A stretch of 18,453 nucleotides of DNA from CBDUXZ01 sp965371325 [NCBI: uncultured bacterium]. GTDB lineage: Bacteria > JAUYMQ01. The notes under the pieces were generated by a model that was given only the letters and a program-made list of their open reading frames with translations, had not been told where the DNA came from and ran no database searches. The first letter of the stretch is position 1; each line of letters starts with the position of its first letter. This document shows, piece by piece, positions 10,331 to 18,352 of this stretch. The stretch is taken from positions 1-18,453 of the forward strand of contig CBDUXZ010000004.1 in the NCBI GenBank assembly GCA_965371325.1, in the 5' to 3' direction. The translations under genes were made by a program, and so were the position numbers.

Positions 10331-11098
10331 GTGTGCACACTCATTGTTCTTGATCGGCTGATTCCCGGCTACCCGGTGATAGCTGCCGCAAACCGCGACG
10401 AGTTGTACGCGAGACCGGCGACGGGGCCTCTCCAGCTCTCCACCCGACCCTGGGTGCTCGGGCCGCGCGATGAGGAAGCGGGGGGCACCTGGATCGGCGT
10501 CGCCGGGGGGCGCTTCTTTGCCGGCCTGACCAATCGCCCCGAGGGGGGGGAGCGGAATTCCTCGCGTCGCTCGAGAGGCGAGGTTACGATGAAGGCCCTG
10601 GGACTCGGAAGTGTGGAGGCCGTCATCGCGGAGATCGGCGCTTTGCCGGAGCATCGTTACAACGGCTTCAACCTGCTGTGCGCGGGCCCCGGCGGAGCGG
10701 GTCTTGTTGCCTACGGAAAGGAAAGCTCAGCCCGGCGCCTCTCGCCGGGGCTTCACATCCTGACAAACAGGGGCCTGAACCTGCCGGAGGATTCGAAGGT
10801 CGGTCGCATTCGAAAGCTCATCGGCGACACCGCCGCGCTCGACTCGGCCGATCGCGCGCTCGAGGTGCTCGAGCGCGTCCTCGAGGATCACGCGGGCGCC
10901 GACATTCTGGAACGGGTCTGCATCCACTCCGCGATCTATGGAACACGATCATCGACCCTTGTGGCTCTTCACGGCGCAGACCCCGGACGATCTCTCTATC
11001 GCCACACCGAGGGCGCTTCCTGTGAAACACCCTGGAAGGACGTGTCGGGCCTGCTTCATGGCACGCCCGTTTCACGCATGAGGGGAGACAGCGCGTGA
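10331..11098 (+). CDS. NRDE (TANGO2-like) family protein
   Basis: The 255-residue product begins Met-Cys2-Thr and carries the name-giving motif AANRDELYARP (19-29), GGTWIGV (51-57), TNRP (67-70) and a later NRGLNLP, which together define the NRDE/TANGO2 family. The fold resembles Ntn hydrolases, in which Cys2 would be the nucleophile after Met removal. The cellular role is not firmly known; in eukaryotes TANGO2 is linked to lipid or heme handling. The GTG start at 10331 has only a poor upstream ribosome binding site but is fixed by the invariant Cys in second position. Its stop codon overlaps the GTG of the response regulator by four bases, so the two are translationally coupled. Confidence 0.88.
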   Translation: MCTLIVLDRLIPGYPVIAAANRDELYARPATGPLQLSTRPWVLGPRDEEAGGTWIGVAGGRFFAGLTNRPEGGERNSSRRSRGEVTMKALGLGSVEAVIAEIGALPEHRYNGFNLLCAGPGGAGLVAYGKESSARRLSPGLHILTNRGLNLPEDSKVGRIRKLIGDTAALDSADRALEVLERVLEDHAGADILERVCIHSAIYGTRSSTLVALHGADPGRSLYRHTEGASCETPWKDVSGLLHGTPVSRMRGDSA

Positions 11099-11784
11099 GA
11101 ATTCTTGTCGTTGAGGATGAGAGGAAGGTTCGAAACTTCGTTCAGAAAGGGTTCGAGGAGGAAGGGTACGCCGTGGATACGGCCGCCGACGGCGACGAGG
11201 CCATCTTTCTCGCCGAGACCAACGACTATGACCTGATCATTCTCGACTGGATGATACCGAAGCGTGACGGCCCCGCCGTCGTCAAGAGTTTGCGGGCCTC
11301 CGGCCTCACGACCCCCGTGATCATGCTCACGGCGCGAGACGCGGTTCAGGACGAGATTCACGGCTTTGACAGCGGCGCGGACGATTACCTGACCAAGCCC
11401 TTCGAATTCGCGGTATTGCTGCGGCGGGCCCGCTCGCTGTTCAGGCGCGGTAAGGGCGAGCTTCCCACTGTTCTCGCGGTCGCCGATCTCAGGATGGATC
11501 TTCTTGCGCGCAAGGTGACCCGGGAGGAGGCGGCGATAGACCTTACCGCCAAGGAGTACAGCCTCCTCGAGTACCTCATGCGCAACGCAGGCAAGGTGCT
11601 CACCCGGACCAACATCGCCGAGCACGTCTGGGACGTCCACTTCGATAGCGACAGCAACGTTATCGACGTCTACATCAACTATCTTCGCAACAAGATCGAC
11701 CGCCCCTTCAGCAAGAAGCTCCTCCAGACGGTTCGGGGGGTGGGCTACGTGCTGAATTCCGAGGAAGCGAGCGGGAACGTTTAG
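11095..11784 (+). CDS. OmpR/PhoB-type response regulator without adjacent kinase
   Basis: The 229-residue DNA-binding regulator has a receiver domain (1-115) with the acidic pocket E7/D8, phospho-acceptor D51 in LIILDWMIPKRDG, T79 in LTARD and K101 in TKPFE, all present. A winged-helix DNA-binding domain (about 128-222) follows, with DLTAKEYSLLEYLMRNAGKV and the closing TVRGVGYVLNS. It should bind tandem direct repeats as a dimer when phosphorylated. Its GTG overlaps the NRDE stop in GTGA, with a GGGGAGA ribosome binding site just upstream inside the NRDE gene. The sensor histidine kinase gene that usually follows an OmpR-type regulator is missing; the next gene encodes a small Cys-rich protein. 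The signal and target genes are unknown. Confidence 0.95.
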   Translation: MRILVVEDERKVRNFVQKGFEEEGYAVDTAADGDEAIFLAETNDYDLIILDWMIPKRDGPAVVKSLRASGLTTPVIMLTARDAVQDEIHGFDSGADDYLTKPFEFAVLLRRARSLFRRGKGELPTVLAVADLRMDLLARKVTREEAAIDLTAKEYSLLEYLMRNAGKVLTRTNIAEHVWDVHFDSDSNVIDVYINYLRNKIDRPFSKKLLQTVRGVGYVLNSEEASGNV

Positions 11785-12376: not shown

Positions 12377-13639
12377 ATGAGCCTGTTCCGACGGGCGGTT
12401 GCCCTTCTGGGCTGTACGGCGCTCGCCCTCGCAATACACGCGTCGCCCTCCGAGGGGGCCAAAGCGTCGCGTCGCACCGTCATCCTGATCTCACTGGACG
12501 GCGTCTCCGGAGATCTGGTGAAACGGGCGGACACGCCAACCCTGGACCGGCTGGCCGCCGAGGGGGCACGCGTCGAGCGGGTCGTTCCCCCCTTTCCTTC
12601 GAACACGTTCCCCGTCCATGCCTCGATTGCAACGGGGACCTATCCCAGCAAGCACGGCATCATCAACAACAAGTTCCTGGATCGCAAACTCGGGCCATTC
12701 AACCGTGAGCGCCCTGCATCGTGGCTCAGATCGCAACCGCTTTGGGCGACCGCCGAACGGCAGAACGTTCGAACGGGCGTCATCATGTGGGTGACCAGCC
12801 AGGGTGACTGGCGGGGCGCGTTTCCCAGCTTTCATATGAAATTCAATCGCCGGACGGGCGATGACAAGAAGGTCGAGCGCATCCTCTCCTGGCTCTCTCT
12901 CCCCCCTGCGGAGCGGCCGCGGCTCATCATGGCCTGGTTTCGCGGGAGCGATGCGGAGGGGCACCGTTTCGGGCCGAATTCGGAGGAGGCGATACAACAG
13001 CTCGAGCGCGAGGACGGACTCCTCGGGAGGCTCAGCGAAGGCATCGGGCGGCGCGGACTTTCAAAGAGCACGACCCTGGTTGTCGTCTCGGATCACGGCA
13101 TGGTCCCGCTCGAGCGTGTGATCAATCTGGATCGCGCCCTTCGCGCAGGCGGGCTCGGCGGGCACGTGGCGACCACGGGGGGAGTTTCTCACATCTATCT
13201 CGACGCACCCTGGGAGCTCGAAGGGGCCAGCAAGATCCTCTCTGCTCAGACGGGCTTTACACTCTATCAACGGGAGGACCTGCCACTGGAATGGAACGCT
13301 ACTGCGGAGGGACGCGTGGGTGATCTCATCGCGGTGGCGGAACCAGGAGTATGGTTCTCTGAAGGGCCGGAATCTATCGTCGCGGGCAAGGTAAAGCATC
13401 GTCTGGGCGGACATGGCTACCCGCCCGGCGTACCCGGAACGGACGGCACCCTGGTAGCCGCGGGGCCGGGGGTCCGGCGAGGGGCGCGTCTTCCCACCGC
13501 ACGCGCCATCGATCTGTATCCCACCCTGTGCAGGCTTCTCGGCATCCGGCCGGCGCGGGGCATCGATGGTCGTGCGCTCGAGGCTATTCTCGAGGAGGGG
13601 CAGGCGCCGAAGGCCTCTTCTGCACAGAGGCGCCCATGA
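12377..13639 (+). CDS. Type I phosphodiesterase / nucleotide pyrophosphatase-like exported protein
   Basis: The 420-residue protein belongs to the alkaline-phosphatase superfamily, NPP branch. Two-metal residues are visible: D41 in ISLDGVS, T77 in PFPSNTFPVH (the nucleophile), D192 and H196 in SDAEGHRFGP, D239-H240 in SDHGM and H346 in GGHGYPPG. It should hydrolyse phosphodiester or pyrophosphate bonds in nucleotides or lipid head groups. The N-terminus is a signal peptide (hydrophobic 7-20); cleavage near HAS/PSEG is likely, while a very early LLGC (C13) could be read as a short lipobox. The ATG at 12377 has GGAG 8 nt upstream. Its end overlaps the NAD kinase start by four bases. The substrate is unknown. 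Confidence 0.9.
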   Translation: MSLFRRAVALLGCTALALAIHASPSEGAKASRRTVILISLDGVSGDLVKRADTPTLDRLAAEGARVERVVPPFPSNTFPVHASIATGTYPSKHGIINNKFLDRKLGPFNRERPASWLRSQPLWATAERQNVRTGVIMWVTSQGDWRGAFPSFHMKFNRRTGDDKKVERILSWLSLPPAERPRLIMAWFRGSDAEGHRFGPNSEEAIQQLEREDGLLGRLSEGIGRRGLSKSTTLVVVSDHGMVPLERVINLDRALRAGGLGGHVATTGGVSHIYLDAPWELEGASKILSAQTGFTLYQREDLPLEWNATAEGRVGDLIAVAEPGVWFSEGPESIVAGKVKHRLGGHGYPPGVPGTDGTLVAAGPGVRRGARLPTARAIDLYPTLCRLLGIRPARGIDGRALEAILEEGQAPKASSAQRRP

Positions 13640-14550
13640 AGCTCTCCCGGGTCCTTCTGGTCACCAAGCGCAGCGCTTACGAGACCCATGAAGAAGACCA
13701 TCGGGTCGGTCGTACGGCGCTCTCGAGGGCAAGGCGCACCACGGTGAAGGCGCTCCTTGCGAGCCATAACGAGCACTACAGGACGCTGGATTTTGTCGAG
13801 AAGGTGCTCGAGGACCTCGATCTTGCCGTGGATCGAATCCCGCGCGACGAAACCTTCGATGACAAGAATTACGATCTGGTCCTGGCGGTGGGGGGAGACG
13901 GGACGTTCATCTCGGCCTCGCACTATGCTCGGAACGTGCCGGTTCTTGGCGTGAACTCCTCGCCACGGGGGAGTGTCGGCTTTTTCTGCAGCGCGACGCG
14001 GGCGACCGTGGCGAGGAACCTGGAGAAGATCCGCCGGGATACCTTCCCCTGGCTCTCCCTGAGTCGGCTCCAGGTGGAAATCGACGGGCTGCCCGTCCCG
14101 GTCCCCGCTCTTAACGATATCCTCTACGCCCACGAGCAGCCGGCGGCCATGGCGCGCTACGAGATCAGGCTGTCCGGCGCGCGGGAGAAGCAGAAAAGCT
14201 CGGGCGTGTGGATCGCGGCCCCGGCGGGCTCGGGGGCGGCCGTGGGGTCGGCGGGGGGAAGGAAAATCGCGCTCGATGCAAAGAAGTTTCAGTTCGTTGT
14301 GCGCGAGCTCTACCGGGGCAAGAGGTATCGTTCCCCGATTTGCAAAGGCATCCTGGGCGCGAAGGAGGCTCTCCAGATCGAAAGCCACATCGGCCCCGGA
14401 AGGATCTTCATCGACGGCCAGCACGTGAGCTACGTCGTTCCTTTCGGATCGATGCTGCGATTTCGGCTGAGTCCTTACCCGCTTCGCGTGCTCGGCCTCC
14501 GCCCCCCCGTCAGGCGGAGGGCGAAGAAGAAGCCCCCTTCCAGGCGCTGA
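13636..14550 (+). CDS. nadK: NAD kinase (atypical substrate loop)
   Basis: The 304-residue product has the NAD kinase signature GGDGT (86-90, catalytic D88), the ND pair N160-D161, and SSGVWIAAPAGSGAAVGSAGG at about 188-208, the equivalent of the bacterial [20 protein letters not shown] stretch. In that loop the usual TGST becomes AGSG, and the SSG-W form resembles NADK2-type enzymes. It phosphorylates NAD to NADP in the cytoplasm. The ATG at 13636 overlaps the phosphodiesterase stop in ATGA and has AGAGG upstream; a longer in-frame reading from 13528 lies inside the previous gene and is rejected. A Lys/Arg-rich tail follows. Its 3' end overlaps the convergent kinase-fold gene by 41 nt. Confidence 0.9.
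   Translation: MKLSRVLLVTKRSAYETHEEDHRVGRTALSRARRTTVKALLASHNEHYRTLDFVEKVLEDLDLAVDRIPRDETFDDKNYDLVLAVGGDGTFISASHYARNVPVLGVNSSPRGSVGFFCSATRATVARNLEKIRRDTFPWLSLSRLQVEIDGLPVPVPALNDILYAHEQPAAMARYEIRLSGAREKQKSSGVWIAAPAGSGAAVGSAGGRKIALDAKKFQFVVRELYRGKRYRSPICKGILGAKEALQIESHIGPGRIFIDGQHVSYVVPFGSMLRFRLSPYPLRVLGLRPPVRRRAKKKPPSRR
14496..14520. repeat. Hairpin in the overlapping 3' ends
   Basis: CCTCCGCC (14496-14503) and GGCGGAGG (14513-14520) are perfectly inverted across 9 nt. The stop codon of the minus-strand gene (14510-14512) falls in the loop, while the arms lie within the NAD kinase coding sequence. No T-run follows. Confidence 0.4.
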
Positions 14551-15898
14551 GCAGGCGATCGGTGAGCGTCTTTAAATCACCGCCGGGCATCCCGCGGCCG
14601 CGAAATTCGACGGCATGGGGCGCCAGGAGAATCGCGCGAAGGGGCCACCTCCCCACGGGTTGGATAACGATCGCCGCCGGATCGAGAGAGAGATTCACCA
14701 CCGACACGGAGGCGAGGCGCTTCAGGAGAACCCGGAGGGCCCCTGCCGCGTTGCCCCTGCCCGTCGTCTCGCCCGGGAGGGGGCCCTTCTCATTTCTCTC
14801 CATGAACAACGTTGCCCTGCCTTGTCGCCAGAGCAGTGCGAGGGGCCTCGGTCCGAGCCGACCCCAGGCCCAAAGCGTATTCGCGCGTGCCCAGATCTCC
14901 CGTCCCTCCCCCGCCCTAAGGGGACCGTAGACAACTCGCCAGCAGGTCCCGTCGGCCAGAATTCGGGGCGTGCGTTCGGCGGCTGGAGCGTTGTCTGGTG
15001 CACACGCCGTGCCAAGCTGCGCCAGATCGTTGCCCCGCCGCGCGAAACCCCTTGCGCCGTTCTGGCGCACACGCGTGAAGTTGCGCCCGTCGCTCACGCA
15101 GTTGCGCCGCATGCGGCGGTGATCGCGCAGGGCGAGCCGGGGCGCGAATGCCGCGAGCTCACGCCACCAGCGGCGCGCCTCCCGCCCGTCTCCCTCCGCG
15201 TAGGCCTTGATGAAACGCATACGCTCGGCGGCCGTCGCGTCATCCATGTGTCGCGAAAACTTGGCGAGCATCCACCGTTGCATCCGGCGGCTCACGCGGC
15301 CCTGAAGGCGCGCCCTTTCGAAATCGACGAGCAGGAAGGAAGGCGACCTGCCGGAAGTAACCAGAATGTTGTTAGGAGCAAAGTCGTCCTGGAAGAGACC
15401 GCCGTCATGGACCCGCCGCGAAAAGGCGCCGAGCGCGGTCGCCAGGGCACGGCGCTGCGCAGATGACGGGGCGGCTACGAACCAGAGCTGCCGGAGATCG
15501 GTTACATCTTCCAGAACGGGAATAAGGAGGTAGCAGGCCGTGAGGCGGCCAAGCCGCCGGTGCTCACCGGCGGCAAGAGGGACGGGCGCGGGCAGTCCGC
15601 GCGCCGCGATGAGCGACGCGGTGCGAAGCTCGCGGCGTGATTTCGACATGCGGAGCATGCGTAGGATTCCGGATCCGAAGGGGTATTCGTTCGCTTTCAG
15701 AAGGTAATCCGCCGCCGCGCCACGCCCGAGGTTGAGGCCATAGAGCTGCTTGCGTCTGCCAGACTTCAGGTTCGGGGAGTCGCCGCGTGCGTGGGCGGTG
15801 AGGGCGGCGCGGATGATCCGGCTTGCCGACGTAGCCGGGGCGCCCGGTGCGAGCCACCAGCGCATGCCCTCTATCCGGATTACGCTCCCTTCGCGCAA
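14510..15898 (-). CDS. Kdo/WaaP-type kinase-fold protein with degenerate second lobe
   Basis: The 462-residue product has two related halves. The first resembles lipopolysaccharide core (Kdo/WaaP/InaA-type) kinases: K68 in YLLKANEY, an R-rich helix 88-100, catalytic-loop LFQDDFAPNNIL with D172 and N177, and the metal-binding SFLLVDFERARL with D192. The second half (about 300-435) repeats the order: RVVYGPLRAGEGRE, then ALLWRQGRATLFMER, VVNLSLDPAAIVI where D-x4-N is expected, and ILLAPHAV where VDFE is expected. The catalytic residues of that copy are therefore lost. The start is TTG 15898 after GGGAGGGG; ATG 15865 is an alternative. It follows MutS2 by 47 nt. It may phosphorylate an envelope sugar. 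Confidence 0.72.
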   Translation of the reverse strand: MREGSVIRIEGMRWWLAPGAPATSASRIIRAALTAHARGDSPNLKSGRRKQLYGLNLGRGAAADYLLKANEYPFGSGILRMLRMSKSRRELRTASLIAARGLPAPVPLAAGEHRRLGRLTACYLLIPVLEDVTDLRQLWFVAAPSSAQRRALATALGAFSRRVHDGGLFQDDFAPNNILVTSGRSPSFLLVDFERARLQGRVSRRMQRWMLAKFSRHMDDATAAERMRFIKAYAEGDGREARRWWRELAAFAPRLALRDHRRMRRNCVSDGRNFTRVRQNGARGFARRGNDLAQLGTACAPDNAPAAERTPRILADGTCWRVVYGPLRAGEGREIWARANTLWAWGRLGPRPLALLWRQGRATLFMERNEKGPLPGETTGRGNAAGALRVLLKRLASVSVVNLSLDPAAIVIQPVGRWPLRAILLAPHAVEFRGRGMPGGDLKTLTDRLLSAWKGASSSPSA

Positions 15899-15945: not shown

Positions 15946-18327
15946 CTATGAGACCAGCGAAATGATGGTCACGCCATCTCCCCCTTCATGAGAGTCGGCC
16001 GCTCGAAAAGCATCGACGTAGGGACTCTCGGAGAGATAGGCGCGAAGCGCCGACTTGAGCGCCCCCGTACCGTGCCCGTGAATGAGGTAGGCGGTGGACT
16101 CCCCCGCCCCGTAGAGCTTGTCAAGGAAGTAGACCACCTTCGGCTCTGCCTCGTCGACGCGGAGACCGCGAACGTCGAGTGTATTCGCGCTCGTTCGCGG
16201 TGCATCATCTCCGCGCGGGACCGTCAACGGATGCACGGGTGGGCGCGACGGTGCCTTGGCGGGTGCGGCTTCGGGCGCCGGCTGCGCATCGGTAGAAGGG
16301 ATCAGCATGCGCTTCCCTCCGACGCGAACCTTGATCCGACCGGCCGCGTTCGGGCCTTCGATGAACTCGGCCGCGGTGCCGAGCCGCGTAAGGCGGAGCG
16401 CCGCCCCGGGAGGAACCCGGGACCAGTCGGTCTTGACGGTGCGCGGGTGCGGGGCGGGCATTTTATCCTTCAGGCGGCTCTCAACATCGATAATTCGCCG
16501 CCGCGCGGAGCCCGCCTCCTGCGCCGTTCCCTTGCGCTGCAGATCGCGAATGACCGAGGCGATCTCCCCGTGCGCGCGCGCCACTTCGGCATCGAGGGCC
16601 GCCTTTACGTCCTGTGAGATTTGAAGACGCGCCTGCTCGATTTCCCTAAGCTTCTCCACCCAATCCTGACGGGCATCCTCGGTCTGGGCCCGGGCCTTCT
16701 GGGCTTCACGCCGCTCTGCATCGAGCGCCAGCCGCAGCTCATCGAGCCGTCGCAGGCGATCATCCATCTCACAGCGATCGGATCCAAAAAGCGCGCGCGC
16801 CCGCTCCAGAACGGCCCCATCGAGGCCGAGATTCGCGGCAATCTCCAGGGCGCCGGAGCGGCCCGGAACCCCCGGGATGATGCGGTAGGTGAGACGGTGC
16901 GTTTCGGGGTCGTACCCCATGCTGGCGTTCTCGAAGCGCGGATCATGCGCGGCGAGTTCCTTCAGCAAAGGATAGTGGGTGGTCACCATGACGCGCGATC
17001 CGCGCGCAACGAGCGCTTCGAGAACGGCTTGCGCCAGCACCGCCCCTTCGGTCGGATCGGTTCCCACAATCATCTCGTCGAGCAGGACGAGGGCGCCCTC
17101 GTCGGAGGCCTCCAGGAACCGGATCATCTGGGCTATCTGTCCGGAGAACGTGGAGAGCGAATCCGCGAGGCTTTGATCGTCACCGATGTCGGCGTGGAGC
17201 CGGCTGAAGAGACCCACCGTGGAGCCCTCCTCCGCGGGAATGTGGAGTCCCGCCCGGACCATCAGGACCGCAAGGCCGGCTGACTTGAGCGCCACTGTCT
17301 TACCGCCTGCGTTCGGGCCGGAGAGAATGAGTCCGTCGTACGTCTCTCCGAGCACGATGTCGTTCGGAACCACGGGCTCCCCCCGAAGCGCGAGGAGGGG
17401 ATGTCGCGCGAGCCGCAGCGAGAGAAGATGTCGGGGGACCACCTGGGGACGGCTTGCCAGGATGCGCTTCGCGAGGCGGGCGCCGGCAATGATGCGATCG
17501 AGACGGCTCATCACCTTGGTCGACGCCTCGATCTCCAGGACCATCTCCCCCACGCGCCCCGCCAGGGCGATGAGAATCCGGATGCTTTCCCGCTCCTCCG
17601 CGCGTTCGGCATAGCGGAGGCGGTTGTTCATGTCGACGATTTCTTCCGGTTCCACGAAGACGGTCGTGCCGCTTGCCGAGACGTCATGGACGATTCCACG
17701 AATGCGGCCGCGGGATTCAATTTTAATGGGAAGCACATAGCGCTCCGCGCGGAGCGTGTAGAAGCGATCCTGAAGATGCGGCGTGAAGGCGGGCGAGACG
17801 AGAGCCGCGGTTATCTTCTTCTGGATCTTTGCGGTCAGCTGAAGCACTTCGCGACGTGCTTCGGCCAGCGCGGGGCTGGCCTCATCGCGCAGGCGGCCGC
17901 CGCCGTCGACTGCATGGAGAAGCGTCTGCTCGAGGCCGGAGAGATCGGGAAGCGCCTCGCCTCGCGCGGCGAGGCGGGGGGCGATGGTGCGGCATTCCCG
18001 CAGCGCGGTCCGGGTCATTCGCATCGCGCGAAGGGTCTCGCCAATCCTCAGAAGCTCGAGACCCCCGAGAACCTTTCCCTTGGCCGCCTGGGCAAGCTGA
18101 GCCACGATCTCGTGGGTGGCGCCGTGAAAAGGGTTCCTGCCGTTGGCAAGCAGCGCGCGCGCTTCCGTGACCTCGTCGAGACGGCCCTCAATCTCGTTAT
18201 CCCCGGCCCAATCCCGCGCGAGCGCAAGACGCCTACCGCCCGGAGAGACCGTCTCTTCCGCGAGGGCGGCTTCGAGGACGCCCCAGTCGAGCATCTCGAG
18301 AACGCGTTCGGAAACCTCGAAACCCAT
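15946..18327 (-). CDS. mutS2: MutS2 family protein (DNA/ribosome collision factor with Smr domain)
   Basis: The 793-residue protein has the MutS2 layout: core/lever helices (about 1-300), an ABC-type ATPase with Walker A GPNAGGKT (337-344), a DDQSLADSLSTFS segment (383-395), Walker B LVLLDE (413-418) and the switch His in TTHYP (449-453), a coiled-coil region (about 510-620), a small KOW-like barrel, and a C-terminal Smr nuclease-like domain (717-793) with LDVRG and HGHGTG (750-755). It lacks the MutS mismatch-recognition domain. MutS2 is reported to suppress recombination or to rescue collided ribosomes. ATG 18327 is chosen over TTG 18342, which has little support. It starts 26 nt after the glutaryl-CoA dehydrogenase stop, so the two are probably co-transcribed. 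Confidence 0.94.
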   Translation of the reverse strand: MGFEVSERVLEMLDWGVLEAALAEETVSPGGRRLALARDWAGDNEIEGRLDEVTEARALLANGRNPFHGATHEIVAQLAQAAKGKVLGGLELLRIGETLRAMRMTRTALRECRTIAPRLAARGEALPDLSGLEQTLLHAVDGGGRLRDEASPALAEARREVLQLTAKIQKKITAALVSPAFTPHLQDRFYTLRAERYVLPIKIESRGRIRGIVHDVSASGTTVFVEPEEIVDMNNRLRYAERAEERESIRILIALAGRVGEMVLEIEASTKVMSRLDRIIAGARLAKRILASRPQVVPRHLLSLRLARHPLLALRGEPVVPNDIVLGETYDGLILSGPNAGGKTVALKSAGLAVLMVRAGLHIPAEEGSTVGLFSRLHADIGDDQSLADSLSTFSGQIAQMIRFLEASDEGALVLLDEMIVGTDPTEGAVLAQAVLEALVARGSRVMVTTHYPLLKELAAHDPRFENASMGYDPETHRLTYRIIPGVPGRSGALEIAANLGLDGAVLERARALFGSDRCEMDDRLRRLDELRLALDAERREAQKARAQTEDARQDWVEKLREIEQARLQISQDVKAALDAEVARAHGEIASVIRDLQRKGTAQEAGSARRRIIDVESRLKDKMPAPHPRTVKTDWSRVPPGAALRLTRLGTAAEFIEGPNAAGRIKVRVGGKRMLIPSTDAQPAPEAAPAKAPSRPPVHPLTVPRGDDAPRTSANTLDVRGLRVDEAEPKVVYFLDKLYGAGESTAYLIHGHGTGALKSALRAYLSESPYVDAFRAADSHEGGDGVTIISLVS

Positions 18328-18352
18328 GCGCTGTCCGGGCAATGGCGGGCTC

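Follow-up and report, generated by a model that had tools for sequence, protein, structure and literature searches.

WaaP, the heptose I kinase of the lipopolysaccharide (LPS) of Pseudomonas aeruginosa, has a solved structure, and its key residues are reported as K51, E78, D163, and D188 (PMC6147952). Its length is given as 268 aa (PMC9138534). In Pseudomonas, the gene PA5006 is reported to be located beside wapQ, wapP, and waaP (PMC8005017). In addition, PA5006 has been described as a putative LPS kinase, and a two-hybrid clone covering its residues 300-493 bound the EamA-like transporter protein PA2576 (PMC8707732). A review of 2025 treats the bacterial pseudokinase families of Ser/Thr kinase type, and the words Kdo, WaaP, tandem, and lipopolysaccharide do not occur in its main text (PMC12599244). 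In the part of the open-licence literature that our search covered, we found nothing describing a pseudokinase or a two-lobed protein of the Kdo family. Outside the bacteria, plant tandem kinase-pseudokinase proteins (Yr15/WTK1 and kin) are described as joining active and inactive domains in one chain, as the protein studied here appears to do. JAK kinases also hold an active and an inactive kinase domain in one chain. Both are eukaryotic protein kinases, and the likeness is an analogy only.

The window, that is, the whole stretch of DNA that was analysed, comprises 18,453 nucleotides of a contig of an uncultured bacterium. An initial annotation of the window had proposed an ORF at 14510-15898 with two kinase-like halves. 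We confirmed this ORF on the minus strand (14510..15898), where it encodes 462 aa from a TTG start codon. The frame stays open up to 15985 and so extends past 15946, where mutS2 ends. A full-length ortholog with 56% identity across residues 8-460 was found in L001, a contig of the metagenome-assembled genome (MAG) Deltaproteobacteria bacterium isolate C24_metabat.bin.90. The kinase frame is real because this ortholog exists in another genome, and a spurious ORF is thereby ruled out. Furthermore, the ortholog has the same lobe architecture and the same loss in its second lobe, and its neighbours are mutS2, directly upstream of it, and a convergent NAD-kinase-like gene. Thus, the same architecture does occur beside mutS2 in a relative, which the initial annotation had suggested as a place to look.

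The window protein and the ortholog are the only two members of this decayed type that we found. Among the 386 genomes reached from the ortholog's genome, there was no further ortholog of the decayed type. The first search of genome contigs with the whole protein gave no relative, the plasmid collection gave no match, and the viral contigs searched for further sequences for folding gave none.

The genes nearest to the window kinase are mutS2, an NAD-kinase-like gene, and a phosphodiesterase gene, and there are no LPS core genes among them. The mutS2 gene (15946..18342, minus strand), which encodes MutS domain V and Smr, lies upstream of the kinase gene on the same strand and is its neighbour in L001 too. 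We have not taken this adjacency as part of the function of the kinase gene. The NAD-kinase-like gene at 13528-14550 on the plus strand is divergent: its N-terminal domain is over the Pfam cut-off and its C-terminal domain is below it (17.8 v 23.7 bits). This gene and the tail of the kinase gene share about 40 bases, as they do in L001, and the two NAD-kinase-like neighbours are 55% identical. Farther away, an OmpR-type response regulator is encoded at 11095-11784 on the plus strand. The plus-strand ORFs listed between this regulator and position 12377 are shorter than 130 aa, and thus no histidine kinase gene directly follows it.

The first lobe (residues 41-250; 15149..15778, minus strand) is assigned to the Kdo/WaaP-type kinases by a Pfam match and by 69% identity to the ortholog. 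Residues 82-233 match the Pfam family Kdo (PF06293), scoring 50.6 bits where the cut-off is 21.3 (E 2.1e-13). The initial annotation had noted that D172, N177, and D192 are kept in this half. We found all three, together with K68 and E90, and all five are identical in the ortholog. From the aligned columns, K68 (15695..15697) is the predicted ATP-binding lysine, E90 (15629..15631) the predicted helix-C glutamate, D172 (15383..15385) the predicted catalytic aspartate in the loop FQDDFAPNN, N177 (15368..15370) the predicted metal-binding asparagine, and D192 (15323..15325) the DFG-type aspartate of VDFE, all on the minus strand. These are the same kinds of residues as K51, E78, D163, and D188 reported for WaaP, a member of the same family. 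Among 75 aligned rows of single-lobe kinases, the catalytic column is D in 66 and the DFG column is D in all 75. At the asparagine column, 51 of these rows have N and 23 have H, and N177 is therefore the least telling of the five positions. The window protein scored far under the cut-offs of the equivalog models for RfaP (NF011703; 24.7 v 170 bits) and KdkA (NF002475; 37.3 v 142 bits), and with 462 aa it differs in length as well from WaaP as reported. Lobe 1 is therefore a member of the Kdo/WaaP family, and these scores do not mark it as an ortholog of either KdkA or RfaP.

The first lobe is followed by a linker (residues 251-310; 14969..15148, minus strand) with the block GRNFTRVRQNGARGFARR, which can be aligned to the corresponding linker in two-lobed kinases. 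Residues 311-440 (14579..14968, minus strand) form the putative second, degenerate kinase lobe, which was recognized from hhalign comparisons and from AF2 and Foldseek results. In this lobe, the equivalent of helix C is EIWARANTLWA (14867..14899, minus strand), with I335 at the place of E90 when the register is set by hand on a GL/GRL pair. The initial annotation had named NLSLDPAAIVI in place of the catalytic loop and APHAV in place of the DFE motif, and both strings are present, the former at residues 402-412 (14663..14695, minus strand; register by hand) and the latter, by alignment, at residues 426-430 (14609..14623, minus strand). With the register of the loop set by hand, the position of the catalytic D172 is S404 (G in the ortholog) and that of the metal-binding N177 is A409 (D in the ortholog). 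The position of the DFG-type D192 is A426 (R in the ortholog), and the region of the beta3 lysine is absent from the alignment. Thus, all five catalytic positions are lost in the second lobe, in a register set partly by hand. From the lost residues, we infer that lobe 2 is without activity.

The best explanation for this gene, to which we give a probability of roughly 0.7, is that it encodes a sugar kinase of the LPS-core type, a type that decorates the outer membrane, and that this kinase carries a pseudokinase lobe going back to a double kinase. Computation supports the ORF and the existence of its ortholog, the homology of both lobes and the linker to two-lobed kinases, and the loss of the catalytic residues. 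Lobe 1, whose catalytic residues are intact, would use ATP to phosphorylate a Kdo or heptose-like sugar on a lipid-linked glycan. Such a sugar is the most likely substrate by family membership and by the gene neighbourhoods of the relatives, the window's own locus not being an LPS locus. Lobe 2 would descend from the second lobe of an ancestral double kinase and would have become a pseudokinase by shedding the ATP lysine, the helix-C glutamate, the catalytic Asp, the metal Asn, the DFG Asp, and part of beta2-beta3. Its role is probably regulatory or scaffolding, and most likely it would serve as a docking module through which lobe 1 is positioned or regulated. The docking idea comes from the two-hybrid fragment of PA5006 and from pseudokinases in general. 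The pairing of a kinase with a catalytically dead kinase copy, which the initial annotation had put forward, is also our best reading, in view of the two-lobed homologs, the lost catalytic residues, and the end-to-end alignment.

Lobe 2 could also be a decaying relic that has no job and is kept merely for shielding lobe 1 or for co-folding with it. This agrees with the identity between the two orthologs, which is 69% for lobe 1 but drops to 52% for the linker and 43% for lobe 2, and with the catalytic loop, the sequence of which is unlike between them. However, the reading frame is preserved, all gaps between the orthologs being in-frame, and EIWARANTLWA is invariant. Furthermore, the codons of lobe 2 differ less at position 2 than at position 3 (0.36 v 0.54; Fisher p 0.005, from counts rebuilt from rounded fractions), with 0.43 at position 1 (p 0.10). 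This test is weak because GC-rich codon use restricts position 3, and these values weakly suggest some constraint on the lobe 2 sequence. On balance, we regard a relic as unlikely.

For the second half as a whole (residues 267-462), Pfam gave no match to Kdo and NCBIfam gave none, and a lobe HMM built in this analysis found nothing in it at E 1. In addition, the direct comparison of the window protein's own two halves was not significant (score 15.1, E 0.22). These results would fit an unrelated C-terminal domain, for example an acceptor-binding one, with a kinase likeness arising by chance. The hhalign probability of 14.6% would fit it as well; it was obtained when a C-half profile of the two orthologs was compared with a profile of 41 Kdo domains, from which the window protein, the ortholog, and one Ser/Thr kinase had been left out. 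However, the same comparison gave a score of 26.0 (P 0.0018) over 131 colinear columns in the right order and spacing, in which the helix-C segments were matched to each other and the degenerate loop fell at the position of the catalytic loop. The best score in 300 column shuffles was 21.4, and the reversed alignment scored 11.0. With the trimmed C-half the score was 26.1, and 200 shuffles reached no more than 18.8. As a real-protein control, 29 segments were taken from three further pairs of orthologs on the contigs of the window protein and its ortholog, and the highest score among them was 16.3.

Furthermore, the two-lobed homologs align through the linker, which also argues against an unrelated domain. 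The window's linker and C-half, in a segment starting with about 20 residues of lobe 1, scored 40.8 (E 3.9e-5, 224 columns) in hhalign against the linker and second lobe of five two-lobed kinases. The C-half without the linker scored 25.6 against the same kinases, and the best of 200 shuffles was 25.4. On the shuffle and segment controls, we hold an unrelated C-terminal domain to be improbable. The same order of segments in the second half, as claimed at the outset, is seen in colinear columns that score above all shuffles against the 41 Kdo domains. At the level of sequence, the kinship of the two halves is visible through homologs only.

For the full-length protein, the AF2 model built with the two orthologs as input was poor, with a mean pLDDT of 41. 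The model of the C-half had a mean pLDDT of 49, with block means of 53-77 over its residues 11-108, where strands, a helix, and two strands follow one another in the order of a kinase N-lobe. When the C-half model was searched with Foldseek, the best match had an E of 8.2e-3 and a TM of about 0.2, and none was below E 0.001. Among the best 50 of 1513 matches (E up to 10), 49 were kinases or aminoglycoside phosphotransferases, including Rio2, MEK1, Wee1, and the BIR2 pseudokinase, and the remaining one was titled as a yeast pre-40S particle. A second structure search with the C-half model gave Z values of at most 6.5, which is middling; most of the 50 matches listed were kinases and at least 5 were other proteins. 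We read the kinase matches of this low-confidence model as support, short of proof. Taken together with the profile comparisons, this evidence is indirect but consistent, and the most fitting reading of the C-half is that of a degenerate second kinase lobe.

The relatives of the window protein show how common the two-lobed plan is. Of the 386 genomes mentioned above, which form the first set, 36 had a match. There were at least ten two-lobed genes in at least eight of the 386 genomes (two in G001, one of them from a separate further search, two in G041, and one each in G025, G049, G087, G174, G186, and G311); these counts were read off the reported matches and are lower bounds, long-frame matches in, for example, G002 and G229 lying outside them. 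A second set consisted of 370 genomes related to a gammaproteobacterial MAG, and 160 of them had a Kdo match at E 1e-6. In this set, a two-lobed gene was present in at least nine of the 370 genomes, as counted over 30 loci and 8 regions; some of these genes are truncated where the locus ends. The initial annotation had called a kinase-pseudokinase tandem unusual for this family. This does not apply to the two-lobed plan, which recurs in both sets of genomes, but it does apply to the decay of the second lobe. It had also named single-lobe homologs with an unrelated C-terminal domain as the case that would speak against a kinase pair. We found the opposite, and the closest architectures have two Kdo lobes.

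Ten second lobes were compared in the first set. Five of them keep the D, N, D triad (L083, L088, L103, L118, and L149), and these five kinases made up the two-lobed profile used above. They share the lobe-linker-lobe plan with the window protein, and L083, L088, L103, and L118 align with it from end to end. However, unlike the window protein, their second lobes keep D, N, D, and the lysine is kept in four of the five, that of L149 lying outside the aligned columns. Their neighbours, where read, are LPS or glycan genes, whereas those of the window gene are not. L149 (the same as L170) is an intact double kinase and a paralog in the ortholog's own genome. Thus, this genome carries both kinds, the decayed one beside mutS2 and the intact one elsewhere, adjoining a glycosyltransferase-like gene as well as sugar-nucleotide genes that were recognized by eye. 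We also observed fusions to a family 2 glycosyltransferase: L118:1-2511 (plus strand) encodes this domain and two Kdo lobes according to Pfam, and L084:3-2363 (minus strand) encodes two Kdo lobes with a family 2 glycosyltransferase recognized by eye, its C-terminal end being cut.

Among the other second lobes, four of the ten are without the catalytic Asp (the ortholog, L087, L097, and L124), and that of L084 is cut off. In L087, L124, and L097, as in the window protein, lobe 1 is over the Kdo cut-off and lobe 2 lacks the catalytic Asp; the second lobe of L124, with an HMM score of 6.5 bits, was judged on the alignment. The neighbours of L087 and L124 are a capsule-synthesis-like gene and a group 1 glycosyltransferase gene. 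L097 differs from the window protein in keeping N and D in lobe 2 and in having Glu for the catalytic Asp of lobe 1. In this gene (L097:637-2511, minus strand), Glu stands in VRPELDPRN of lobe 1 and Gln at the same position of lobe 2, and both lobes are possibly inactive. A search for further kinase-pseudokinase genes like L087 and L124 gave matches in 18 of 290 genomes and no new full-length one. The sequence from G319 breaks off at the place of a second lobe, and G319 was therefore set aside as a case of second-lobe loss. A tree of lobes set the window protein and its ortholog apart from L087, L124, and L097, which grouped together, with weak deep forks. This tree covered 68 of the 112 collected lobes, after exclusion of rows of at most 150 letters, of a single row for a Ser/Thr kinase, and of the majority of the second set's rows, and 24 of its 65 forks were open.

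The helix-C position deserves a separate description. The glutamate was found in none of the 16 readable rows among 17 second-lobe rows, which have A in eight and S in eight, even when the other catalytic residues are intact. At the same position, the 18 first-lobe rows have 15 E, 1 D, and 2 gaps, and the 75 single-lobe rows have 60 E and 12 A or S. Since second lobes in general are without this glutamate, the second lobe may have been specialised before it died. One first lobe from the second set, that of L189, has T at the DFG column, probably through an alignment shift. The missing glutamate, set beside a D, N, D triad kept in 14 of the 17 second-lobe rows, suggests that odd active sites are tolerated and would leave room for a lobe 2 that is still active by a non-standard mechanism with other residues, but this is very improbable for the window protein, in which all five positions are gone and the replacements mostly differ between the orthologs (S/G, A/D, A/R).

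We now return to the reading of a kinase with a pseudokinase lobe and to the place of its relatives in the genome. Five of the eight regions of the second set hold a two-lobed gene, in an open frame that spans 488-496 aa and in every case has single-lobe Kdo kinases as neighbours. Both lobes keep the catalytic D, N, D in these five genes (in L207, as seen through its duplicate L181). In L206, for example, WaaF and WaaC are followed by a protein of 400 aa, then by WaaP and three further Kdo-type kinases, and finally by the two-lobed kinase and a NodU-like carbamoyltransferase. The genes found beside two-lobed relatives include KdsA, heptosyltransferase II, WaaC, WaaF, and WaaP, all over the cut-off, and MsbA, GmhB, and the kinase domain of HldE, somewhat under it. 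The 488-496-aa genes, such as that of L206, occupy a place like that of the PA5006-type gene in the waa operon of Pseudomonas. Size and gene order suggest that PA5006 is itself a two-lobed kinase, and we infer that its fragment that bound PA2576 is the second lobe. The window protein differs from these genes in that its second lobe is without D, N, D and its gene lies outside a waa cluster.

In summary, the two-lobed architecture of Kdo kinases is pre-existing and little described, and the version with a dead second lobe appears to be new, as judged from the literature covered. It is conceivable, though we offer it tentatively and regard it as doubtful, that double kinases of the LPS type have repeatedly turned into kinase-pseudokinase pairs in which the dead lobe regulates lobe 1 or docks it on the machinery of glycan assembly. 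Such pairs would be the bacterial equivalent of the JAK arrangement, with sugars instead of proteins being phosphorylated. If the reading of the window protein as such a pair is true, this pair in the LPS-kinase family, together with its intact double-kinase relatives, would be a natural series for testing what a non-catalysing second lobe does. It would also draw attention to the uncharacterised two-lobed gene of waa-type clusters.
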